Both the position numbers and the translations under genes were made by a program. Under the pieces are notes generated by a model. That model made no database searches, was not told where the DNA came from, and saw only the letters and a program-made list of their open reading frames with translations. From Akkermansia sp. (GTDB lineage Bacteria > Verrucomicrobiota > Verrucomicrobiia > Verrucomicrobiales > Akkermansiaceae), in the NCBI GenBank assembly GCA_017549485.1, contig JAFYUT010000001.1:1-64000 (forward strand): a DNA stretch of 64,000 nucleotides, given 5' to 3'. Shown here piece by piece: positions 11,477 to 25,746 of the stretch; position 1 is the stretch's first letter; every line of letters starts with the position of its first letter.

Positions 11477-12361
11477 TTATGCACTAAAGTGCTGCCACCC
11501 TCCGCTGAGGGTGTTTCTCAAAGAATTTGTCAATTTTCCGATGGGGAAAAGAGACAGCTGCGGGTGTTGGTTCACACATGCTGCATCTAAGGGAGAAAGC
11601 GTGAGCAACAGCTCATAATCTTCCCCATCATTAAGGGCTTGTTCAACAGAGCAGCCGGGGTTGCACGGTATGAATTCACGGGTCAATTCAAAACCGCAAC
11701 CGGATGCAGCAGCCAAGCGTGGCAGGTCGGCAGCAATGCCGTCTGACAAATCCATCATGGCAGTGGGGCGAAGCCCAAGCAACATCAAGGAGCGAGCTAA
11801 ATGCACGCGAGGAGTAAAATCTAAATGATGCTCAGAGGGGAAACTCCCCCCCAGCGGGCCAGTAACAAAGATGACATCACCTGCTCGGCCACCGCTGCGC
11901 AGAATGGCCTGCCCGTGCTCTACCCTGCCGGTGAGTGCTACATTAATGACAAGCCCATCGTAGGGGATGGATGAAGTCTCCCCGCCGGCAACAGAAATAT
12001 TGAATTGAGTTGCTATCTCATCAATACCGCGATAAATGCCCTCAAGCAGCTCTACAGGGCGGCTTTTATGAGCAAGTATGGTAATGAGAGCATGCTCAGG
12101 CAAACCACCCATTGCCGCGATGTCTGACACGGCGCGAGCCAAAGCTTTTCGTCCAATGCGGCGAGGCTCCGTATCGGGGGTAAAGTGAACATTCTCTACC
12201 ACAACATCGGTTTTCAACAAGGTATCCCACTCTTCATTACGGGCAACAACGGCACAATCATCCCCGGGCCCAACCATCATGGGGGCAGAATCGTGTAGGC
12301 ATGACAGCAAGCGTTGTAGTACTGCATTTTCGCCCAACCCCTGTAAGGGTGTGTGTGACAT
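11477..12361 (-). CDS. thiL: thiamine-monophosphate kinase
   Basis: Phosphorylates thiamine monophosphate to the active cofactor thiamine diphosphate, which MenD (encoded at 29.6-31.2 kb) requires. Family motifs: GPGDDCAVV near residue 31, LLKTDVVVENVHF, the AMGGLPEHALITI block and DLSDGIAADLPRL, all for metal-ATP and substrate binding in the AIR-synthase-like fold. I use the ATG at 12361; a TTG four codons upstream overlaps the preceding gene's stop. It is the last gene of its operon, overlapping or abutting the CPBP gene. Confidence 0.92.
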   Translation of the reverse strand: MSHTPLQGLGENAVLQRLLSCLHDSAPMMVGPGDDCAVVARNEEWDTLLKTDVVVENVHFTPDTEPRRIGRKALARAVSDIAAMGGLPEHALITILAHKSRPVELLEGIYRGIDEIATQFNISVAGGETSSIPYDGLVINVALTGRVEHGQAILRSGGRAGDVIFVTGPLGGSFPSEHHLDFTPRVHLARSLMLLGLRPTAMMDLSDGIAADLPRLAAASGCGFELTREFIPCNPGCSVEQALNDGEDYELLLTLSPLDAACVNQHPQLSLFPIGKLTNSLRNTLSGGWQHFSA

Positions 12362-12369
12362 CGGCAAAA

Positions 12370-13212
12370 TCAAGCGGAAGGTATGAAGAAAATCTGAATG
12401 ACGACTATGGCATTAAAGATAGCGTGAAGAATCATCGGATAAATGATAGAGCGGGTCTGCGCATAGAGCATACACTGCACAAAACCGAAAATGGATAAGA
12501 CTACGGTTTGAATCAAAGAAAGGTGAACAGCCCCGAACAAGATTCCAGATAGAAGGGCAGCCGATACAATGCCGATGCGACAACTGAGAAGCCTGAAAAT
12601 AAACCCGCGAAAAAAGATTTCCTCAACAATGGGAGCTATCACAATGGCGCTGACTGCCAATGGCATCATCTCAACCGGTGACGCTTGTTTCAAAGTTTTG
12701 ACGCTCTGCTGCATTTCCGGAGACCCGGTCACGTGTATCAACCATTCATAGAACCCGGATACGTCTATTATGATATTCAGCACGTAAATGCACATCAAAG
12801 CGGGGATAACAAGCAGGAAAGAGCGTAGAGATACCCATTTTTCGGAATTAAAGGTACTCGTATATCTTACCAGCAGAGGCATGTAAAGAAACAAGGGGAA
12901 CAACATGTCAATCCATGCTTCCAACAAACCGGGCTCTCGCACCGAGTTTTCTGCGGCTTCATCAGACATGAAAAACGAGGCAGAAAACAGCAGCGTGTTG
13001 ACACATATATAGAAAAGAGTAAACAATTTATCCGCAAGAACAGGGTATTTTGCTTGCAGCACGGGCTCTAACGGGGGAAGCTCATAAATAACACCGGCCG
13101 ATTCAACATACCTTTTGGACGGTAACGGTAGGAGACAGAAAAAGAAGACAAGCCCCGCACTGCTGAGAAGGAGTGCTAAATTTATTTGCTCGTAAAATTG
13201 TAGATTATCCAT
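12370..13212 (-). CDS. CPBP-family intramembrane metalloprotease (Abi/CAAX protease-like)
   Basis: A 280-residue multi-span membrane protein with about eight hydrophobic segments. The conserved motifs of the CPBP/Abi family are visible: VEEIFFRGFIFRLL (EExxxR, near residue 203), then LFGAVHLSLIQ (FxxxH) and LHAIFNAIVV (HxxxN/D). These coordinate the metal and the catalytic glutamate in prokaryotic relatives of Rce1. Substrates of bacterial members are mostly unknown; some protect against bacteriocins. Its own promoter (TTGAAA/TAAAAT) lies across the end of the preceding gene. thiL follows with overlap. Confidence 0.88.
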   Translation of the reverse strand: MDNLQFYEQINLALLLSSAGLVFFFCLLPLPSKRYVESAGVIYELPPLEPVLQAKYPVLADKLFTLFYICVNTLLFSASFFMSDEAAENSVREPGLLEAWIDMLFPLFLYMPLLVRYTSTFNSEKWVSLRSFLLVIPALMCIYVLNIIIDVSGFYEWLIHVTGSPEMQQSVKTLKQASPVEMMPLAVSAIVIAPIVEEIFFRGFIFRLLSCRIGIVSAALLSGILFGAVHLSLIQTVVLSIFGFVQCMLYAQTRSIIYPMILHAIFNAIVVIQIFFIPSA

Positions 13213-13226
13213 CTGTTCCGTTGGTT

Positions 13227-13255
13227 ATTTTAGCTTGCTTTACGGGTATTTTCAA
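13227..13255 (-). promoter_or_regulatory. predicted promoter of the CPBP protease-thiL operon
   Basis: TTGAAA, 17 nt, TAAAAT on the minus strand. The -10 box ends 14 nt before the ATG; the -35 box overlaps the stop end of the phosphopantetheinyl transferase gene. Confidence 0.5.
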
Positions 13256-13824
13256 GAAGAAAGTCGGTAGGCAACAGCCCCGCAATAGTCTGAATGAGGT
13301 TGAAAAAGCTCCACGGCAATAGATGTATCCCCCATGACATCAACACGGCCATGATTCAAAACAAAGGGATAATCCAAGGCTTTCCATATCGTGGCGCCGT
13401 GCAGTTTAACAAGAGATTCGGCAATGCTCCAGCACGTAAAAAACACCTCTGCCGGCTCTCCCTGTGAGCGAAATCTCTGCAATTGTTCAGCGCCCATAAT
13501 ACGAGGAGCCGATTTAGAAATAAGGGCATTGCCGCGTTTTTGTTGAATATCAACACCAATAGGAGCATGATGAAACGCCATGCACAAATAATCACCGGAA
13601 TGGCTGATATTGAAATGCACCCCTTGAGTCAAAGGTTTACCGTGTTCGTTCTGAGTAAAGCAAACATCGGCAGCGGCTATACCTACTCTGCGAGCAATTT
13701 CATGACGGAGAAGAGCCCTCGCCATACGGCGAGAGAGAGGGAATTCCCGCTCCTCTTGCGTCAATACGGAAACATCCAACGCAAGCTTTGAGACTTCATT
13801 AAGCCTGTAACAGAGATAATCCAT
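13252..13824 (-). CDS. 4'-phosphopantetheinyl transferase, Sfp/EntD type
   Basis: A 190-residue enzyme expected to attach the phosphopantetheine arm from CoA to acyl or peptidyl carrier proteins. The family's blocks are present: HFNISHSGDYLCMAF, PIGVDIQQ (metal-binding GVDI) at about residues 103-110, and FFTCWSIAESLVKLHG. In the last block the usual W-x-x-K-E-[AS]-x-x-K is WSIAESLVK, so the first lysine is alanine while E and the second K remain. No carrier-protein or polyketide genes are nearby, so it may serve fatty-acid ACP. It begins 1 bp after the phosphodiesterase gene stop. Confidence 0.85.
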   Translation of the reverse strand: MDYLCYRLNEVSKLALDVSVLTQEEREFPLSRRMARALLRHEIARRVGIAAADVCFTQNEHGKPLTQGVHFNISHSGDYLCMAFHHAPIGVDIQQKRGNALISKSAPRIMGAEQLQRFRSQGEPAEVFFTCWSIAESLVKLHGATIWKALDYPFVLNHGRVDVMGDTSIAVELFQPHSDYCGAVAYRLSS

Positions 13825-13825
13825 A

Positions 13826-14317
13826 TCAGATTCGGTAAAAGCTTACATCATTGGTTGCTGTATCATATACGGCAAACCCCGGCGGACGCCGCACCCCGCC
13901 AACCTCACCGGGGTTAACAACAAGCGTGCCTATATGGATAAACTTTTCAGCCACGTGAGTATGCCCGAAAAACACGGCATGATAATTGCCGCTTTCAGCT
14001 TTGGCTGATGCACGGTATGGCAAATGGGTGAAATATATGTTGCGATGCTCAATCTCTAACGCTGCTTCATCCCCATGGTGAACAGCATCGGAAAAAAGAG
14101 AAGCGATGCGCTGGTGCGCGGCTCGGTCATATTCATTGTTACCGAAAACGATATCTGCCGGCATTTGCCACTCTTCAAGTAACAACTTAAGTGTAGATAT
14201 CTCTACGATATCACCCATAAAAAACAAGCGTGTGCAGCCTGCCTCCTTGGCAGCATGCAGTGCCAGAAGCATATTTTCCGTGCGGTCATGCACATCTGAA
14301 AGCAATGCAATTTTCAT
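13826..14317 (-). CDS. YfcE/MJ0936-type metallophosphoesterase
   Basis: A 163-residue calcineurin-like phosphodiesterase. The metal-binding motifs run in the expected order: LLSDVHDR (DxH), FFMGDIVE (GD), FGNNEYD (GNHD variant, with N for H), and FFGHTHVAE (GHTH), followed by NPGEVGG, typical of the YfcE clade. Substrate unknown. It overlaps the preceding 710-residue membrane protein gene by 4 bp, so it may be translated with the three-gene cluster, or merely share its operon. Confidence 0.85.
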   Translation of the reverse strand: MKIALLSDVHDRTENMLLALHAAKEAGCTRLFFMGDIVEISTLKLLLEEWQMPADIVFGNNEYDRAAHQRIASLFSDAVHHGDEAALEIEHRNIYFTHLPYRASAKAESGNYHAVFFGHTHVAEKFIHIGTLVVNPGEVGGVRRPPGFAVYDTATNDVSFYRI

Positions 14318-16446
14318 GGATTCTTACGTTCGGCTGCAAAAAGAGGGGAGAGAGGCAGAGCCTCCGATGGTGCTTCATCCTCCGTAAAATAGCGAACACC
14401 ATCCGCTGACACATACCACAGGGGGTCACCATCCTTGCGCTCGCGGCAGAGATGCATCTTTCCTGCGGCATTAACATAGCCACAGAAACGAGCTGTAGCA
14501 GCATAGGCAGCAAGGAAATTATCGGCCATTTCGGCACGGTAATCATGCCCGCGGTGAGTCTTGAACCACTCAGCAAAGGCGTTTTCAGCACGGCGCACAT
14601 CGGCAGCTGTGCTGAGCCAACATCCGGGAACTAAATTCAACCGATGTCGTTTCAACAGTTCTGCAAATGAAGCAGAATGAGCTTTCAACGTCGGAGAGAA
14701 ACGCACACCACTCAACAAGGGATGCGGGTGGGCATTCGTCAACTTCAGCAATACCCAATAAATATACGCCTGAGCTAATGCCGGGTGTTTACCCTCGGGA
14801 TAATTCAGCACCTTCGTCAGCAAATCAGGTATATTTTTTTGTATAAATAGGGTATTGCGTTCAATGTCTAAATTAATGGGTAGGGTGCTGGCATCTATCT
14901 CACCCAACTCATAGGTGTCATCGTTCTGAAACTCGCGGTAGGTATCTTCCGGCGTATAGGCTGGGTCAATCGTGCTGCGGCGGTAGGTGATAAAATTCGT
15001 TTTGTCCAGCTGAGGTTGAATCGTGCTGTACCAAGTTACCGAATCCGACACTTTGAGAGTATATACCTTATGCCGGTATGAGGGAGCCGTAAATAAATCT
15101 TCGGCTATCTGCAAGACTTCGGGTGAAGCAGGGAATTGTTGTGTAAAACTGGAAGCGCCGTTGAGAAATACGGCGGTTGCAGCCGACAACTGTTCAGCAG
15201 AAATATCGCCCTCGGGAGCAGATACATGTACCATCATTTCTTCCTCAGAAGGCAAATGTGGCTTAATGGTCAACAATCGTTGAGCAGGGGCATATACCGC
15301 AAAGTCAGTCTCTTCAAGTATTTTACGGTATGATTTATAGCTTCGGCATGCAGATATTCGCGTAAAGAATTGTTGAAGCTGCTTGATATCTCGCAGCAAC
15401 ATGCGATTATCATCAAGAGCTTCGTTTATAGAAGCAGGCATATCGGAGCTGATGCCATACAATCTAATAGTTGCATCAGTTTCCGCAAGCCTCTTCAAAA
15501 GGGCTTCTTTGTGTGCCGTTAAAAGCTTAATATCCTCCCCGGCATTCCCTGTCAATTCCGGGGAGAGCGGCAAAGGCTTCTCCAGTTCATGCTGTATTTC
15601 TGTTTTGTGAGCAACTAATTCATTGTATTGGAGCCTGCAAACATCATGCCATCGGCTACGTAATTGTTCTCGGCCTCGGGGTGAGGCGTCAATTTCTGCA
15701 TCCAACTCAGCAAGAGCACTTGGTGACAAGTCAGATACTTTCTTTTTTCCTGATTCAAAGTGTGATAACAGGGAATCTATTTTATGGTAATGTTTAGCTA
15801 CTCCTCGCAGCCAATTCTGCGCGTTAGCTCCGGCATTTTTCAATTCCGGGCAAAAGTATCGGTACAATGCACTATCTGCTGAATGCAAGGCGGTTTCCAC
15901 ATTGTCAACAGTCGGGTGTTCCATTGCTTGCATGAGTTGTTCGTATCGACTTTGAGCATTGTTATTCAAAGCAACACATACAGAAACAACCAGGGTTAAA
16001 GCGCTTGCAACCAATCCCCCCTGTAGGAGGATACGTTTTCTCTTACGCCCCCCCAATTCACGAATCCTTTTTTTCAGCAAGCGTAGATAACGAATATATT
16101 GCTCTGACAGTTCAACTCCGCATCGTTTCAAAATAGCGGCATGATGCTCAAAGGCACTTAATGAATTTGATAATTCATCTTTGCTCATCATACGCAGTTT
16201 TTCCTCGGGGTGGTCATCCATTAACCAATCTAACGCTTTCCGCGCATCATTAGCGGCAGCCTCACGGCGTTCGGCCGCTGACAAGGTTAAACGCATAGGC
16301 TCCCCATGATTCAATCGATACAGCTCTTCTTTTGCTTCAAGGTCCTGCGGATTTTCCTCAATATAGTCAGACAAACAAGAGCGCACGTCATCCCACCGCT
16401 CAGCCAAAGCCATGCGTCTGAGAATGCGCTGTATGTTTGCGTTCAT
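14314..16446 (-). CDS. large membrane-anchored helical protein of the GTPase/GAP1-like cluster
   Basis: A 710-residue protein I do not recognise. Residues 1-130 are helical and charged, with a short TPR-like start (AERWDDVRSCLSDYIEENPQ). A strongly basic stretch (GGRKRKR, about 136-142) precedes one membrane span (LVASALTLVVSVCVAL). The remaining 540 residues are mostly predicted helices, ending in a region with tryptophans and aromatic residues. The basic residues before the span suggest N-in, C-out topology: cytoplasmic N-terminus, large periplasmic part. It follows the GAP1-like gene by 17 bp and overlaps the phosphodiesterase gene. A link to the GASH-type helical partners of GTPase systems is possible but I cannot show it. 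Confidence 0.75.
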   Translation of the reverse strand: MNANIQRILRRMALAERWDDVRSCLSDYIEENPQDLEAKEELYRLNHGEPMRLTLSAAERREAAANDARKALDWLMDDHPEEKLRMMSKDELSNSLSAFEHHAAILKRCGVELSEQYIRYLRLLKKRIRELGGRKRKRILLQGGLVASALTLVVSVCVALNNNAQSRYEQLMQAMEHPTVDNVETALHSADSALYRYFCPELKNAGANAQNWLRGVAKHYHKIDSLLSHFESGKKKVSDLSPSALAELDAEIDASPRGREQLRSRWHDVCRLQYNELVAHKTEIQHELEKPLPLSPELTGNAGEDIKLLTAHKEALLKRLAETDATIRLYGISSDMPASINEALDDNRMLLRDIKQLQQFFTRISACRSYKSYRKILEETDFAVYAPAQRLLTIKPHLPSEEEMMVHVSAPEGDISAEQLSAATAVFLNGASSFTQQFPASPEVLQIAEDLFTAPSYRHKVYTLKVSDSVTWYSTIQPQLDKTNFITYRRSTIDPAYTPEDTYREFQNDDTYELGEIDASTLPINLDIERNTLFIQKNIPDLLTKVLNYPEGKHPALAQAYIYWVLLKLTNAHPHPLLSGVRFSPTLKAHSASFAELLKRHRLNLVPGCWLSTAADVRRAENAFAEWFKTHRGHDYRAEMADNFLAAYAATARFCGYVNAAGKMHLCRERKDGDPLWYVSADGVRYFTEDEAPSEALPLSPLFAAERKNP

Positions 16447-16463
16447 ATTAAAAGCAGCTGTAT

Positions 16464-17936
16464 TTAATGAGCTAATTGACGAATAATGGGGCGCATGTGA
16501 TGTTGCAACCGTCTGTCATTTGAAACCGCTTGCTTGAGTTGCGGATATTTTTTAAATAGGTTCTTCCAACCGTGTAAAACAGTTGTATCGCTATTCAACT
16601 GTACCCACTCCTCAGCAGGATAATCACGCGTGGCTGTTATTAAATAATAATGGCATAACTCCTCAGGCTTTAATTCCAGCATAGTTGCATGGGTGAGCAG
16701 GTAGAGCAAATTATCAGGGTGCCCCTCTGCTTTGTGAGCTGACGCAAGCAACAAGTCAATACATTCTGCCAATATGGCATGGCGAGGGTGCATTGATGGG
16801 AGTAATGAGGCCTTGAGACGCTGCAATTGCGGCTCAGCCGGCTGAGATTGACGAACAATAGCAGCAAACTCATGTACGGCACGTTGTTCCTCTTGGGTGG
16901 TAAGCACTTCATCGCTTACCGGCGCTGAGGCAAAATCCACATAGTTACTGACCACAACATACACCAGCACAGTTAAACCCAAGAGGCCACCTATATATCG
17001 GAGCCATCGCGCATGAGAACCTATCGGCGGCTTGACATCAAATGTTTCGTAGTCTTGGGCTTCAGTGTATTTATAGGGTTCCGGAGTAAAAGAGGGCGCA
17101 GCCATAGGCGTTTGCCTCTGTTCGGCCTGTGGCATAACAAGGGGCGCACCGCTGCGAACAAATGAGCTGCGAGTACCGGAATCTTCTTCCAGGATTGAGA
17201 GATTATTATTAATTACCAGTATGGGAATAGGATGTGCAGCAAGCCTGAAAGAGTCTTCCTCTGCACTGTTGGTGCATGTTACAGCTATGTCTACCGCATC
17301 AAAATCGGTAACAGAACCGGAGAAAAAAGAGCTGAAACATTTTCCCCAACCACGGGTTACCGATAACCATGTACTTTCATGTAAAAGCCTCAATGCCTTA
17401 GCATTCGTTAATTCGGGAGATATGCTCATCAGACATTTACCGAGATAGGGAGGAGCCAGCAATGCTGTGGCGTTACGCTTGTGTCCGGTATATAATTTCC
17501 AGCACTCTTGGGTAGATGCATCCGGCAATTGAGAGGCGGATACCTTCGGTTCTTGTGGGGAAGACGTCGGTGATGAGGAAGATGTTTGCCAAAAGTCAAC
17601 GGAATACAAGGTCTCAATTATTCCTGCTGGAGTCGGTCGAGAGGAGTTTTTCTGCAACGCAATTACTTCCTCTTCCGTCAGCACCAAATGGTGGATTCTG
17701 ACCCCGGAAGCGTCTTGATAACTCATGGCGCTGAGCACATGATGTTGCCCCATGATATGATAGCAGAAATGAGTTTGCGCAACACGCGGAACTTTAACAC
17801 TGAGAGTTTTGCAGAACTCTTGCAGTAAAGATTGCAGATTCTCCGGCATATCAGCACTGACAGCAAGCACCTCAACTCGGGGCGAACAGTATTCCTCTCC
17901 GAGAATCTGGGTTTGGCTGATGTGTTGATACGACAT
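16464..17936 (-). CDS. GAP1-N2-like protein with one membrane span
   Basis: About 490 residues. The N-terminal 110 residues resemble the GAP1 N-terminal domain of GTPase-associated conflict-type systems: VEVLAVSADMPENLQSLLQEF, then THFCYHIMGQHHVLSAMSY, ending RIHHLVLTEEE, which matches the AHHLVL-E signature. A Ser/Pro-rich linker, a second globular region and a proline-rich stretch follow. One membrane span (YIGGLLGLTVLVYVVVSNYV, about residue 320) leads to a C-terminal helical region. I use the ATG at 17936; the frame opens at 17960, inside the previous gene. It is co-transcribed with its flanking genes. The domain assignment is by pattern and should be treated as probable. Confidence 0.7.
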   Translation of the reverse strand: MSYQHISQTQILGEEYCSPRVEVLAVSADMPENLQSLLQEFCKTLSVKVPRVAQTHFCYHIMGQHHVLSAMSYQDASGVRIHHLVLTEEEVIALQKNSSRPTPAGIIETLYSVDFWQTSSSSPTSSPQEPKVSASQLPDASTQECWKLYTGHKRNATALLAPPYLGKCLMSISPELTNAKALRLLHESTWLSVTRGWGKCFSSFFSGSVTDFDAVDIAVTCTNSAEEDSFRLAAHPIPILVINNNLSILEEDSGTRSSFVRSGAPLVMPQAEQRQTPMAAPSFTPEPYKYTEAQDYETFDVKPPIGSHARWLRYIGGLLGLTVLVYVVVSNYVDFASAPVSDEVLTTQEEQRAVHEFAAIVRQSQPAEPQLQRLKASLLPSMHPRHAILAECIDLLLASAHKAEGHPDNLLYLLTHATMLELKPEELCHYYLITATRDYPAEEWVQLNSDTTVLHGWKNLFKKYPQLKQAVSNDRRLQHHMRPIIRQLAH

Positions 17937-17946
17937 TCCGGTATTA

Positions 17947-19671
17947 TCAAGTATCGGCAAAAACGCCGTTTTCGTAGAGATTCAACACCCACATAAAGGG
18001 ATCAGTCACGTGTGCCGGTGTTAGTTTCCCACTTTCAGGGGCGATGTAATGTTCACCCAGTAATTCATCTTCAAAAACTTCCGGCTGTACGCCGAAGGAT
18101 GAAACAGCAAAATAACACACTTGGTCGGATATTGCTTCCGCTTTGGCCGGAATCTCCGGGGCAATTCGGAAGAGGAGTTCTCTCAATCGTGCAGAGTTGG
18201 CGTATATGTTATGAGGCTTAAGATTACGGTTTCTGACGGTGGGGAGCAGGGGCTCGGGCCCAAGCAACTCTTCCCACATATCGCTTTTAGTGAGGATAAA
18301 TGCTATGGGAACATTTGTTTTTGTACCATGATGCAAGTTAAGCGCTTGTCTCAAATGCATTTCCATATCGGACAACAACAAGGATTGCCCCGCATAGGCG
18401 CGCCCGGGAGATGCAGTCTTATTGGTGTGCGTGTGAATAATCTCTCGGAATGCCGGATACTGGGTAGGGTCAAACAGGCAGAAAATAGCATCAGCCGTTT
18501 TCAACACGTCGCGGTCGAATGCCCGAGATTCAGATGATGAAGAAGCGGCCATCCCATTATAAAATATAAGAGAATGAGAAGAGCGCCCACGGTTAAGAGT
18601 GTAAATAAATGGATGCGGAAGTTTTTCAAAAACACTTTTTCTCCACACCGAACTGTGAAGTTTCCCCTCTAAGAACAAGCGCCCCTCGCGAAACTCCTCA
18701 GGCGTGTCAGAATAAAACACGCGTATTCGCATATCATTCAGGGCAGCATTCTGCTCCGGGTCTGCATCTCGGAAAGGCATGTCGAAATTACCGGGCAAAT
18801 CGCGCTCAAGTCTATGAATGAGGGAGGCCATGTAATACCCCATTCCGGCACCTTCGGCGCCCACAATGGCAATCCTATGGTGTTGCATACGCTCATAGAA
18901 AGGCGGCAGTTTATGGTGACACTCGGGACACGCAAAATCCTGACAAATACCGCCCATTTCATCTATAACCATGCCATCGGCCGTATAATTCTCTGGGGTA
19001 AAGCGTTTCATTGCACCCGCACCGAGCACTGTATCGCCTCTCAATAAAGGATGAGAAGCTATGGCTAATGATTGACCGGGTTGAAGCACACTGTGACAGA
19101 ACGGACAACGGAAAACGGTCTCTTTCTGTTTAACCAGCGATTGAGTCTCTATGGCCTCCCCGTCTTTTTTACGAAGAAGAATGGCAACTTCCCGTAAATC
19201 CGTAATACGGAAAGCATTATGACCTAAACCGTAAAACGTAGCCAAGAGCGCATCATCATATCGGTCGGATTCTTGTAAAAGATGGCGAAACTCAATTTCA
19301 TCACTCCACTCATCCGTTTGAGGGTTGTAGGTATACCAGCAATCTGAATTGAACGCCCCGAAGTCGGGTCTGGAATCATCATTACCGTACCAAGCGATAA
19401 AACACCCGCCTTGCAACACGAATAAATAAAATCGCTCAGGCTTGATATGAGCCGTACCATTCGTACGATTGCCATTGATAGAATACTCTGCAACCTTATG
19501 ATTGGGAAAAAATCTGCATACACCGCTGCGCTGAGCAAATACGCCGGCACTCTCGGCATCCGTAAGGATACGGAAGTTATTTTGTTTGCCTGCACCTATG
19601 GCCATGAAATCCCCATCAGAAACGCGAAGTTTTCCGGTAAGGCAATCGTATATGTAAAGTTGGTCTTTCAT
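17947..19671 (-). CDS. FHA-like, zinc-ribbon and degenerate TRAFAC GTPase-like protein
   Basis: 574 residues. Residues 1-100 look like an FHA-type beta domain (AIGAGKQNNF, YSINGNRTNGT). Two cysteine pairs, CPFC (189-192) and CPEC (248-251), form a split zinc ribbon. A P-loop GTPase-like domain starts IAIVGAEGAGMGYYMASL (268-285), but the GxxxxGK[ST] motif reads GAEGAGMG: both the lysine and the Ser/Thr are lost. The switch-II region reads LIFYNGMA, where active relatives have an aspartate. A G4-like ILTKSD (459-464) and a G5-like FAVSSFG remain. The zinc-ribbon/GTPase order matches the DO-GTPase2-type family. It is probably a pseudo-GTPase that binds nucleotide weakly or not at all. First gene of the cluster. 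Confidence 0.72.
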   Translation of the reverse strand: MKDQLYIYDCLTGKLRVSDGDFMAIGAGKQNNFRILTDAESAGVFAQRSGVCRFFPNHKVAEYSINGNRTNGTAHIKPERFYLFVLQGGCFIAWYGNDDSRPDFGAFNSDCWYTYNPQTDEWSDEIEFRHLLQESDRYDDALLATFYGLGHNAFRITDLREVAILLRKKDGEAIETQSLVKQKETVFRCPFCHSVLQPGQSLAIASHPLLRGDTVLGAGAMKRFTPENYTADGMVIDEMGGICQDFACPECHHKLPPFYERMQHHRIAIVGAEGAGMGYYMASLIHRLERDLPGNFDMPFRDADPEQNAALNDMRIRVFYSDTPEEFREGRLFLEGKLHSSVWRKSVFEKLPHPFIYTLNRGRSSHSLIFYNGMAASSSSESRAFDRDVLKTADAIFCLFDPTQYPAFREIIHTHTNKTASPGRAYAGQSLLLSDMEMHLRQALNLHHGTKTNVPIAFILTKSDMWEELLGPEPLLPTVRNRNLKPHNIYANSARLRELLFRIAPEIPAKAEAISDQVCYFAVSSFGVQPEVFEDELLGEHYIAPESGKLTPAHVTDPFMWVLNLYENGVFADT

Positions 19672-19747: not shown

Positions 19748-19776
19748 GGCTTCTCTCCCTCGGAGGAAGAGAAGCC
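19748..19776 (-). terminator. RND operon terminator
   Basis: A 9-bp stem (19748-19756 with 19768-19776), extendable inward, followed on the minus strand by a run of five T. It lies just after the efflux pump stop codon. Confidence 0.7.
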
Positions 19777-23028: not shown

Positions 23029-25746
23029 TCAGAATTTATTAAGATTGGGAACAGGTGCTTTATCGGCAGTGATAGAGGGTTCTACCGTCTTGGGTGCAGT
23101 ATAGATGAAGTCTCGGGGGATGACCTTATTGGCGCGTCCGTTTGCTTTCATGTTAGCCTGCAAAGCCATGCCGGCGGGGATGGTTCCTTCTACAATGACT
23201 TTCACTTGGCTTGGGTCCGGGAATCCTACAGCCTGAAGTATTTGGGGGTTAATCTCAACAATCTGCATGGGTTGAATCACCTCTTTACCATCCGGTCCGG
23301 TAACGGGAATGGTAACAATCGGCCCACGCTTGATGGGAAGCGGGGTAGGTGCATTATCTGCCCCAAGCAGTATGATGATATCATTACCATCAGCATTCAT
23401 GGGGGCACGGGCAGGTACCAAGTATGCATTTTTGAACTCACGCAACCCGGCACGCACTGTCACGGGCATACCGCTGCGCAAGCCATTTGTCACATTTTCC
23501 ACTTCACCCACAATGCCGAAGGTACCGGTGCTCTTTTTAACCACATTATCGGGAGAAACAATTTTACCTTTGGCCGGATACAGGGAGCCGTTCTCTAAAA
23601 GGATATCGAACTCCATGCCTCCGTTCGGGTTATTTTTGCCAACTCTGTTGGTAATCTGCAGTGCATCCCTACCACTTACTTGGAAATCCACGCGCATGGG
23701 ATTAACAGATGACAGTGTTACCAACGGCTCAACCGCAGAGGGCGATACCAATGAGCCGATGGAGGGATTGCTGATACCGGCACGCCCGGTAAAGGGAGCT
23801 TTAATGGTGGTGTAACTCAAGTTGATTTCAGCCGTCAGAACAGCGGCATTCATTTGCTCTACGGCAGCTTCCGCTTGGCGTAAAGCGGCTTGCTTGGTTT
23901 GTACGGCACTGCGGGCATCGGTAATATCTTTCTCGGCAACAGCTCCATGTGTTGTCTCATTTGCCTTTGTATAGCGTTCTAAATCGCTTTGAGCCTTTTC
24001 AAGCTCAACCATGGCGGCCTCCTTGCGAGCAATCGAGGAATCAAGGTTAGCCTTGGCTTGAGCCAAAGCGGCTTCATAGGGCGCCGGATCTATAGTAAAC
24101 AATACATCACCTTCCTTGACAATTGTACCATTGCGGAAATGCTGTTTAAGCAGGAACCCGCTGATTTGTGGGCGAATCTCCGTCTCTTCTTTACCTCTTA
24201 CCGTGCCATACCAATCTACGGATACGCATACATCTTGTTGCAACAAAGGTGCAACTTTTACAAGAGCCGGCGGGAGCGTGGCTTTGGCATTCGTGTTAAG
24301 CGGTTTCTGCTGCTGATTTGCGGCCTGAATGGGAGCATTAGGCTTGAAGCTGAGAGTTTCCGTGAGGATGGAGGCAGGCTTAATGGTGTCGGGAGAGGGC
24401 ACTTCGTCTTCCAAGCCTACGGCTACCAGCAGGGAGCTCAGTAAGCTGTTTTCCTGCTCCTTGCGAGCTTCTTCCAATGCCTTCTTCTCTTGAGAAATGC
24501 GAGCGTTGGCAGAGGATATATTCATAGCCTGTACACCATTGTCTGCATCTGCCACAACAGGCACAGCAGTGACATCCTCATACCCGTATGATTTGAATGC
24601 ATCGGTCAAGGATTTGTCCTGATAGTCAGATACGGCTACAAGTTTTTGTGTGGATTTAAAACCATCTGCCTCTTCTATCTCGACTTCATATACACCTTCC
24701 GTCGTAACGGGAAGAGAGTGGGGAACATTCTGTTTATCAACCACAAGAATGAAGTTGTTGCGCATAACCGTGCGGATTGCGCTTTCAGGCACAAGCATAG
24801 CCTCTTTGGTGCTCAGGGGAATCTTCACGTTGATTTTCATACCACCGCGCAATTTACCCTCGGGGTTAGCTATCTCACCCACAATATCAATGAGCCCGGT
24901 ACTGTCTACTTTGCTGTTCATGGAGAGCAGCTTACCCTTGTGGGCGTATGTGGAGCCGTCTTCCAGCAACAATTCAAACTCGGGGGAGGCGTCTTTGAGC
25001 TCAGGGTCTTGCTTGTCCGACTCTACTTTGCCATAGCGTTTGAATGAATCGAGTAATGCATCACTATTGATAGAAAAGTCTACTCTCAACGGGCCATCGG
25101 AAGTGATGTTACCGAGCTTTGTTGAGGGGCCTACCAATGCACCGGTAGATACATTAGAAGTGCCGACAAATCCGGAGTAGGGAGCCTTTACCCCGGCATA
25201 TTGAAGGTTGATTTCAGCCGTCATGACTGAGGCCTCCTGCTGCTTGATATCAGCCAAACATGCATCTACCTTGGCCTTTGCCGCATTCAGATTGTGCTGA
25301 GCATCGGTAAGTTGTTTATCGGAAACGGCGCCGGTTTTAACCAATTGGGTATAACGGTCAACATCCAGCTGCAATTGGTCTCGATTTACCTGAGCCTGCT
25401 CCAGAGAAGCATTTGCTGCATCAAGATTTGCCTTTGCTCGGGCGAGTTCCGCTTCAAAAGGCTTGGGGTCAATTTGGTAAATAACCTCACCTTCTTCAAC
25501 GTACTGTCCTTCCTTGTAAGAAACAATGAATCCCGACACTCTCGGATAAAGGTCTGTATCTTGAACACCTCTGAGATACCCCATCCACTCACCCGTATCA
25601 GTTACGGTCTTCTTTTGAATGGGAAATACCTTTACGGAGCGTTGTTGTAGTTGAGTACCGGTTTTTTCTCCATCTGAGCATGAGGTCAGGAGTAAACCTG
25701 CTGTGCACAAACTGAAAGCCAGTGCTGTAATGGTTGTTCTGGTCAT
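23029..25746 (-). CDS. tandem-fused RND periplasmic adaptor (two AcrA-like units in one lipoprotein)
   Basis: 905 residues, about twice the size of AcrA/MexA. A signal peptide ends in a lipobox with Cys23 (LLTSC). Unit A (about 38-340) and unit B (about 495-800) each contain the full adaptor order: beta-barrel and lipoyl half, helical hairpin, second lipoyl half, barrel. Matching pairs: YQIDPKPFEAELARAKANLD versus FTIDPAPYEAALAQAKANLD, and TAEINLQYAGVKAPYSG versus TAEINLSYTTIKAPFTG. A 150-residue linker with a charged helix joins them. The two units are clearly diverged, so this is an old duplication. RND pumps use six adaptors as three unlike-interface pairs; here each pair would be covalent. 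It is followed by the pump gene. Confidence 0.9.
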   Translation of the reverse strand: MTRTTITALAFSLCTAGLLLTSCSDGEKTGTQLQQRSVKVFPIQKKTVTDTGEWMGYLRGVQDTDLYPRVSGFIVSYKEGQYVEEGEVIYQIDPKPFEAELARAKANLDAANASLEQAQVNRDQLQLDVDRYTQLVKTGAVSDKQLTDAQHNLNAAKAKVDACLADIKQQEASVMTAEINLQYAGVKAPYSGFVGTSNVSTGALVGPSTKLGNITSDGPLRVDFSINSDALLDSFKRYGKVESDKQDPELKDASPEFELLLEDGSTYAHKGKLLSMNSKVDSTGLIDIVGEIANPEGKLRGGMKINVKIPLSTKEAMLVPESAIRTVMRNNFILVVDKQNVPHSLPVTTEGVYEVEIEEADGFKSTQKLVAVSDYQDKSLTDAFKSYGYEDVTAVPVVADADNGVQAMNISSANARISQEKKALEEARKEQENSLLSSLLVAVGLEDEVPSPDTIKPASILTETLSFKPNAPIQAANQQQKPLNTNAKATLPPALVKVAPLLQQDVCVSVDWYGTVRGKEETEIRPQISGFLLKQHFRNGTIVKEGDVLFTIDPAPYEAALAQAKANLDSSIARKEAAMVELEKAQSDLERYTKANETTHGAVAEKDITDARSAVQTKQAALRQAEAAVEQMNAAVLTAEINLSYTTIKAPFTGRAGISNPSIGSLVSPSAVEPLVTLSSVNPMRVDFQVSGRDALQITNRVGKNNPNGGMEFDILLENGSLYPAKGKIVSPDNVVKKSTGTFGIVGEVENVTNGLRSGMPVTVRAGLREFKNAYLVPARAPMNADGNDIIILLGADNAPTPLPIKRGPIVTIPVTGPDGKEVIQPMQIVEINPQILQAVGFPDPSQVKVIVEGTIPAGMALQANMKANGRANKVIPRDFIYTAPKTVEPSITADKAPVPNLNKF

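Follow-up and report, generated by a model that had tools for sequence, protein, structure and literature searches.

What becomes of a GTPase-based module when its GTPase loses the motifs with which nucleotide is bound and switched? Most known pseudo-GTPases are eukaryotic, and as a rule only the end point of such a change is seen. The question is raised here by a three-gene locus of an Akkermansia species, in what we call the window, the whole 64,000-nucleotide stretch of DNA that was analyzed. A first-pass annotation of this DNA had described three adjacent, co-directional genes at 14314-19671, and these are present as minus-strand open reading frames (the minus strand is marked (-) below). 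P1 (17947..19671 (-)) encodes a zinc-ribbon, DO-GTPase2-like pseudo-GTPase of 574 aa. P2 (16464..17936 (-)) encodes a GAP1-N2-like membrane protein of 490 aa when read from an ATG, or 498 aa when read from a TTG at 17960. P3 (14314..16446 (-)) encodes a third core protein of 710 aa, predicted to have a helical cytosolic N-domain, one membrane span, and a long noncytosolic part. P1 and P2 overlap or almost touch, depending on the start of P2, and P2 and P3 are separated by 17 nt. P3 overlaps by 4 nt with the gene for an associated YfcE-like metallophosphoesterase (MPE; 13826..14317 (-); PF12850, 3e-26), whose metal motifs (D-x-H, GD, GN, H, and GHTH) can be read in the sequence. Next comes a second associated gene and conserved neighbor, which encodes a 4'-phosphopantetheinyl transferase (PPT; 13252..13824 (-); PF01648, 1.3e-8), and the downstream flank of the same gene run consists of a CPBP/Rce1-like protease gene (12370..13212 (-); PF02517, 1.1e-20) and a thiL-like kinase gene (11477..12373 (-); AIRS domains). 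The order in the window is P1-P2-P3-MPE-PPT-CPBP-thiL, then dnaA. On the other side, between P1 and an upstream RND permease gene, lies a terminator-like hairpin (19748..19776 (-); 13 pairs, 7 of them GC, and a T-run), which is a consensus match only. The source genome is a MAG-like assembly of 108 contigs with 87.6% completeness, and its nearest named relatives are Akkermansia or Akkermansiaceae MAGs, one of them from goat cecum. Separately, an RND periplasmic adaptor of 905 aa, in which two RND_mfp domains are fused in tandem, is encoded at positions 23029-25746 of the window; the orthologous open reading frames in L007 and L008 are 922 to 932 aa long.

Pfam, NCBIfam, and PADLOC scans of the three window proteins gave no match at a usable score; for P1 this includes DO-GTPase2 (PF19993), against which it stayed below the curated cutoff. 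Profile searches against PDB sequences also returned no match. The family had nevertheless been guessed as DO-GTPase and GAP1, a guess borne out through orthologs that pass the cutoffs of both models: the P1 ortholog in L010 scores 28.0 bits against PF19993 (cutoff, 27), and the P2 orthologs in L009, L010, and L012 score 44 to 66 bits against GAP1-N2 (PF20013; cutoff, 24). More widely, 15 of 27 sampled P1 relatives match DO-GTPase2 with an E value of 0.01 or better, and 10 of 27 sampled P2 relatives match GAP1-N2. Because full-length P1 is 42 to 63% identical to its closer orthologs and ~30% identical to the most distant ones, L010 among them, its homology to the DO-GTPase2 family via these orthologs can be taken as secure. 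An FHA-like domain had also been proposed for the N terminus of P1, for which we found no profile match and no support. The AlphaFold model of P1, made with three sequences as input, had a pLDDT of 34 and was left out of the fold search. A profile search of the window's genome found no other DO-GTPase; further GTPase-like matches to the DO-GTPase2 model in that genome were dismissed as background, since all 14 control genomes have such matches too.

To see which motifs P1 has lost, we used an alignment of 71 homologs, 55 from Akkermansiaceae and 16 from other Verrucomicrobiae. Lys277, Asp372, Ala374, and Gly375 are invariant in 60 of them, here called intact; the remaining 11, all from Akkermansia, lack the switch-II D-x-A-G and are called degenerate. 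P1, for which a zinc ribbon had been reported, has two, each with a cysteine pair conserved across the homologs, the CxxC of C189 and C192 (19096..19107 (-); 59/60 intact and 11/11 degenerate) and the CPxC of C248 and C251 (18919..18930 (-); 60/60 and 11/11). The P-loop, residues 271 to 278, reads GAEGAGMG (18838..18861 (-)), and the codons GGC GCC GAA GGT GCC GGA ATG GGG confirm what had been said of it, that the lysine and the Ser/Thr are gone: Lys277, present in 60/60 intact homologs, is Met, and Ser/Thr278 is Gly. The switch-II aspartate is likewise absent, as had been claimed. Residues 370 to 376 (G3; 18544..18564 (-)) read FYNGMAA, in which N, M, and A replace D372, A374, and G375, all three invariant in the YD-x-AG (D-x-A-G-E region) of 60/60 intact homologs. 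Residues 332 to 339 (18655..18678 (-)), probably a switch I element, have also changed; T332 (59/60 intact) and Y339 (60/60) are Leu and His in the window, and both are gone in most of the 11 degenerate homologs. G4 had been described as kept, which is true of K462 and D464 in TKSD (residues 461 to 464; 18280..18291 (-)), invariant in 71/71 homologs, but not of the preceding Gly461, which is found in 60/60 intact homologs and is Thr in the window and has changed to Thr or Ser in its clade. D302 and N308 are retained in the window, as are most core residues of P1 in the degenerate homologs. From these motifs, window P1 is predicted neither to bind nor to hydrolyze nucleotide. A different reading would have P1 bind nucleotide noncanonically, with a lysine from elsewhere or from a partner, so that only hydrolysis or switching is lost. 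The retained TKSD, D302, and N308 would fit it, as would L054 and L090, in which switch II is missing and the P-loop lysine remains; however, the window lacks both that lysine and the Mg-coordinating Ser/Thr, and the G4 glycine is replaced in its clade. We consider noncanonical binding improbable and rank it after the slow decay discussed below.

The degenerate homologs form a series. In the P1 tree, six of them make up one clade (the window, L051, L052, L054, L079, and L090), four make up a second group (L078, L084, L085, and L086), and L095 is a third case. A P-loop residue is lost in 5 of the 11 homologs without switch II versus none of the 60 with it (Fisher P = 4e-5, which is descriptive only, as the sequences are related). 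The variants are GMG in the window, GKA in L051 and L052, GKV in L079, and GRS in L085; L051 and L052 thus retain the lysine and lose the serine, and the window is without both. L054 and L090 have no switch II yet keep intact P-loops (GKT/GKS). Since L054, with its GKT, nests inside the window's clade, the tree places the loss of switch II before that of P-loop residues and calls for at least four P-loop losses, unless residues were regained. In the second group, switch II itself may have disappeared on more than one occasion, because the P3 and DnaA trees place an intact homolog, L068, inside that group. The first-pass annotation had asked whether the lysine is missing in relatives as well. 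Lys277 is lost in L085 and kept in L051, L052, and L079, and the full motif GxxxxGK[ST] is present in 50/55 Akkermansiaceae and 16/16 class-level homologs. Because orthologous clusters with an intact P-loop account for 50 of the 55 in the family, the sequences indicate that its loss is a derived and recurrent state within one genus. Sequencing error as the whole explanation was rejected: there are at least two P-loop substitutions, the loss of switch II is common to five other species and runs through the whole six-species clade, and P-loop residues were lost at least four times. The window's Lys277Met depends on a single assembly, a caveat that does not extend to the wider loss.

Whether such genes are still maintained bears on the main rival explanation, a slow decay in which the function of the module is fading in the clade and P1 is heading for deletion, as in other lineages. 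Against it, all 11 degenerate P1 genes are open, with no internal stop, across divergent species, and dN/dS in close degenerate pairs lies at 0.06 to 0.11 (0.062 for L051/L052, 0.108 for L085/L086, and 0.058 for L078/L084, where dS is high), within the range of 0.01 to 0.24 for intact pairs; these pairs exclude the window, which has no relative close enough for dS. The retained zinc ribbons and core residues also argue against decay. In its favor, degenerate P1 evolves faster than intact P1. For a given thiL or dnaA divergence, the identity of degenerate pairs falls 14 to 24 points short of the value predicted from intact pairs, although the deficit is small relative to MPE and vanishes relative to PPT. 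These results indicate a constraint on degenerate P1 that is weaker but still present. Both P2 and P3 evolve more quickly than P1.

Decay is also seen in P2. Its degenerate GAP1-N2-like domain, about residues 1 to 110 (17607..17936 (-)), contains the motif HHLVLTEEE at about residues 82 to 90 (MSYQ numbering), just as had been noted. Against a GAP1-N2 profile that we built from class-level homologs and Akkermansiaceae paralogs, the window's P2, which has no Pfam match, scores 13.8 bits, at the low end of a graded series that rises through its relatives to 200: class-level homologs score 173 to 200 bits, and the median in Akkermansia is 119 where the GTPase is intact and 27 where it is degenerate. 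Low scores also occur in L068, L089, and L096 despite an intact GTPase, so the decay of GAP1-N2 in step with that of the GTPase is a trend. P2 has also become short, 312 to 500 aa in the window's clade versus about 900 in most others. GAP1-M and GAP1-C gave no Pfam match in window P2, and GAP1-M was found in 1 of 27 relatives. Both the domain decay and the shortening count in favor of slow decay of the module.

The single membrane span attributed to each partner protein was recovered by prediction, at residues 320 to 338 of the 498-aa reading of P2 (16947..17003 (-); hydropathy, 1.83) and residues 139 to 157 of P3 (15976..16032 (-); flanking charge, +8 / 0); none was predicted in P1. As the N side of its span is strongly positive, P3 is likely oriented N-in. 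The P3 model has a pLDDT of 58, about 80 in the helical N-domain and low in the C-terminal half. It found no significant match in the PDB, and the best hit, CHIP-TPR at an E value of about 1, weakly suggests a TPR-like N-domain. P3 homologs occur together with P1 in 50/55 Akkermansiaceae and 16/16 class-level loci. Three of the exceptions (L080, L083, and L087) have lost P3 and kept P2 and a P1 with an intact GTPase, and P2 there leads straight to MPE; L088 shows no P3 either, and L069 is cut by a contig end. P1 and P2 are adjacent in all 55 and all 16 loci. Chance is excluded for the trio, whose gene content and gene order recur in 50 of 55 Akkermansiaceae loci.

By an alignment-profile search, 52 of 76 Akkermansia genomes have a full-length P1, and the patchy distribution suggested by a single-sequence search (4 of 97 family genomes) was rejected on that basis. 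The P1, P3, and DnaA trees agree: in each, the window's pseudo-GTPase species group with one another and nest in the same way, which indicates that the trio is vertically inherited in Akkermansia. G145, G161, and a tight group of near-complete genomes that we read as A. muciniphila-like branch outside and are without the trio; the MPE of the A. muciniphila-like genomes has other neighboring genes and was taken to be a paralog. In most Akkermansia loci, the trio is followed directly by MPE and usually then by PPT, and the CPBP-thiL order is kept in about half. The gene-order survey that had been proposed thus turned up fixed P3-MPE-PPT neighbors within the genus and, elsewhere in the class, a rare trio. 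A deeper second paralog group of the trio, present in some Akkermansiaceae (L010, L088, L091, L100, and L012), has intact GTPases throughout; within it, L010 adjoins an IS-like transposase, and L100 has upstream GYF-type proteins.

P1 has been lost outright in several genomes: P2-P3 are kept in G002 and G150, P3-MPE is kept in G154 and G159, and G147 retains a shortened P3. In G152, an 83-aa remnant of the P1 N terminus directly precedes P3 (L128:8445-8696), apparently left by deletion of the remaining P1 and all of P2. These losses are what slow decay would lead one to expect, but all of them lie outside the pseudo-GTPase clade, in clades whose other members have intact GTPases. We regard slow decay as the strongest of the rivals and still an unlikely one.

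Of the roughly 260 class genomes from outside Akkermansia (286 searched in all), 15 carry the trio, at 16 loci, and the GTPase is intact in every one. In 8 of the 16, some of which are cut by contig ends, the trio is followed by a gene for a MotA/TolQ/ExbB-family protein (PF01618; E value of about 1e-9), usually accompanied by genes for a GYF-type membrane protein and for single-span, ExbD-like proteins, one or two per locus (L159:1656-8032, L161:9492-16432, L160, L162, L166, L167, L172, and L174). This arrangement suggests a GTPase-linked ion-channel complex at the class-level loci. The rarity of the trio, its homology to the family, and the faster evolution of P2 and P3 would also suit an active anti-invader (conflict) system of the type described by Kaur et al., with P2 and P3 as fast-evolving sensors. 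However, domain scans found no effector domain, in keeping with the earlier remark that no toxic effector is visible; the neighbors are fixed rather than variable, no trio protein has a PADLOC match, and the trio holds a vertically inherited position with MPE-PPT and often CPBP-thiL-dnaA. We regard a conflict system as very unlikely, the least favored of the explanations, and, because of this inheritance and this fixed run, favor a role in cell physiology over one in defense.

The reading that we prefer, at a probability of roughly 0.6, is that the trio encodes a membrane-anchored, vertically inherited DO-GTPase2/GAP1-N2/P3 complex in which the GTPase no longer cycles and serves as a constitutive structural subunit. 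P1 would sit in the cytosol and dock, via its zinc ribbons and core, on the cytosolic parts of P2 (GAP1-N2) and P3 (the helical, TPR-like N-domain). P3 would pass a signal or load through the membrane to the long part of the protein on the outer side, and MPE and PPT would be operon partners and perhaps also partners in function. Control by nucleotide would have been bypassed in the window's lineage, so that the module is always assembled or is controlled by its membrane proteins. We infer the scaffold role of P1 from the order of motif losses, the open genes, the low dN/dS, the zinc ribbons in 11/11 degenerate homologs, the parallel decay of GAP1-N2, the concordant trees, and the absence of a second DO-GTPase from the window's genome. 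The weaker constraint on P1, the repeated loss of P1 with P3 kept elsewhere, and the retained G4 count against it, and those losses mean that the path may end in loss. That there is an ordered, repeated route (switch II, then the P-loop Ser/Thr or Lys) to a selected nucleotide-free scaffold, with GAP1-N2 losing conservation in parallel and all forms coexisting at one locus in one genus, we hold to be about evenly balanced between true and false. With every stage of the series represented at a single locus of one bacterial genus, exchanging intact for degenerate versions and the reverse could test in what order the losses came and why the switch is dispensable. The locus also offers a predicted conflict-system module that has settled into vertical inheritance in a gut-bacterial genus, with a conserved third core protein, P3, now identified.

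Among known systems, the class-level relatives resemble the Zorya-like ZorA/ZorB and ExbB/ExbD proton channels in that the trio precedes a MotA/TolQ/ExbB-family gene, with weak PADLOC matches to ZorA. Unlike in Zorya, the channel gene is absent from the window's cluster and from the orthologous Akkermansia clusters examined; the window is not a Zorya system. The trio itself is akin to the GTPase-centric GAP1-N2 systems of Kaur et al. (2020, PMC7159879), which are membrane associated, have been recorded from verrucomicrobiae among others, and have a zinc-ribbon GTPase gene preceding a GAP1 gene, in many cases for a protein with a span toward its C terminus. The window has this layout too, with its zinc-ribbon, DO-GTPase2-like P1 preceding a GAP1-N2-like P2 that has a predicted span. 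It differs in having a single GTPase without P-loop and switch II, a degenerate GAP1-N2, and fixed P3-MPE-PPT neighbors, and in the near absence of GAP1-M from its relatives; FNIII, tubulin, HSP70, and kinase partners were not seen in its cluster. The main text of that founding survey includes neither Akkermansia nor MotA/ExbB/TolQ partners such as those of the class-level relatives. P1 can also be compared with eukaryotic pseudo-GTPases. Septins (PMC10731463), p190RhoGAP domains (PMC5593906), and the fungal dynein light intermediate chain (PMC4359372) have, like P1, a GTPase fold in which the nucleotide motifs or their role have changed and a role in assembly persists. Those families are unrelated to P1, a bacterial TRAFAC-type zinc-ribbon protein, and in contrast to them, P1 can be followed from intact through half-lost to fully lost across the species of a single genus.
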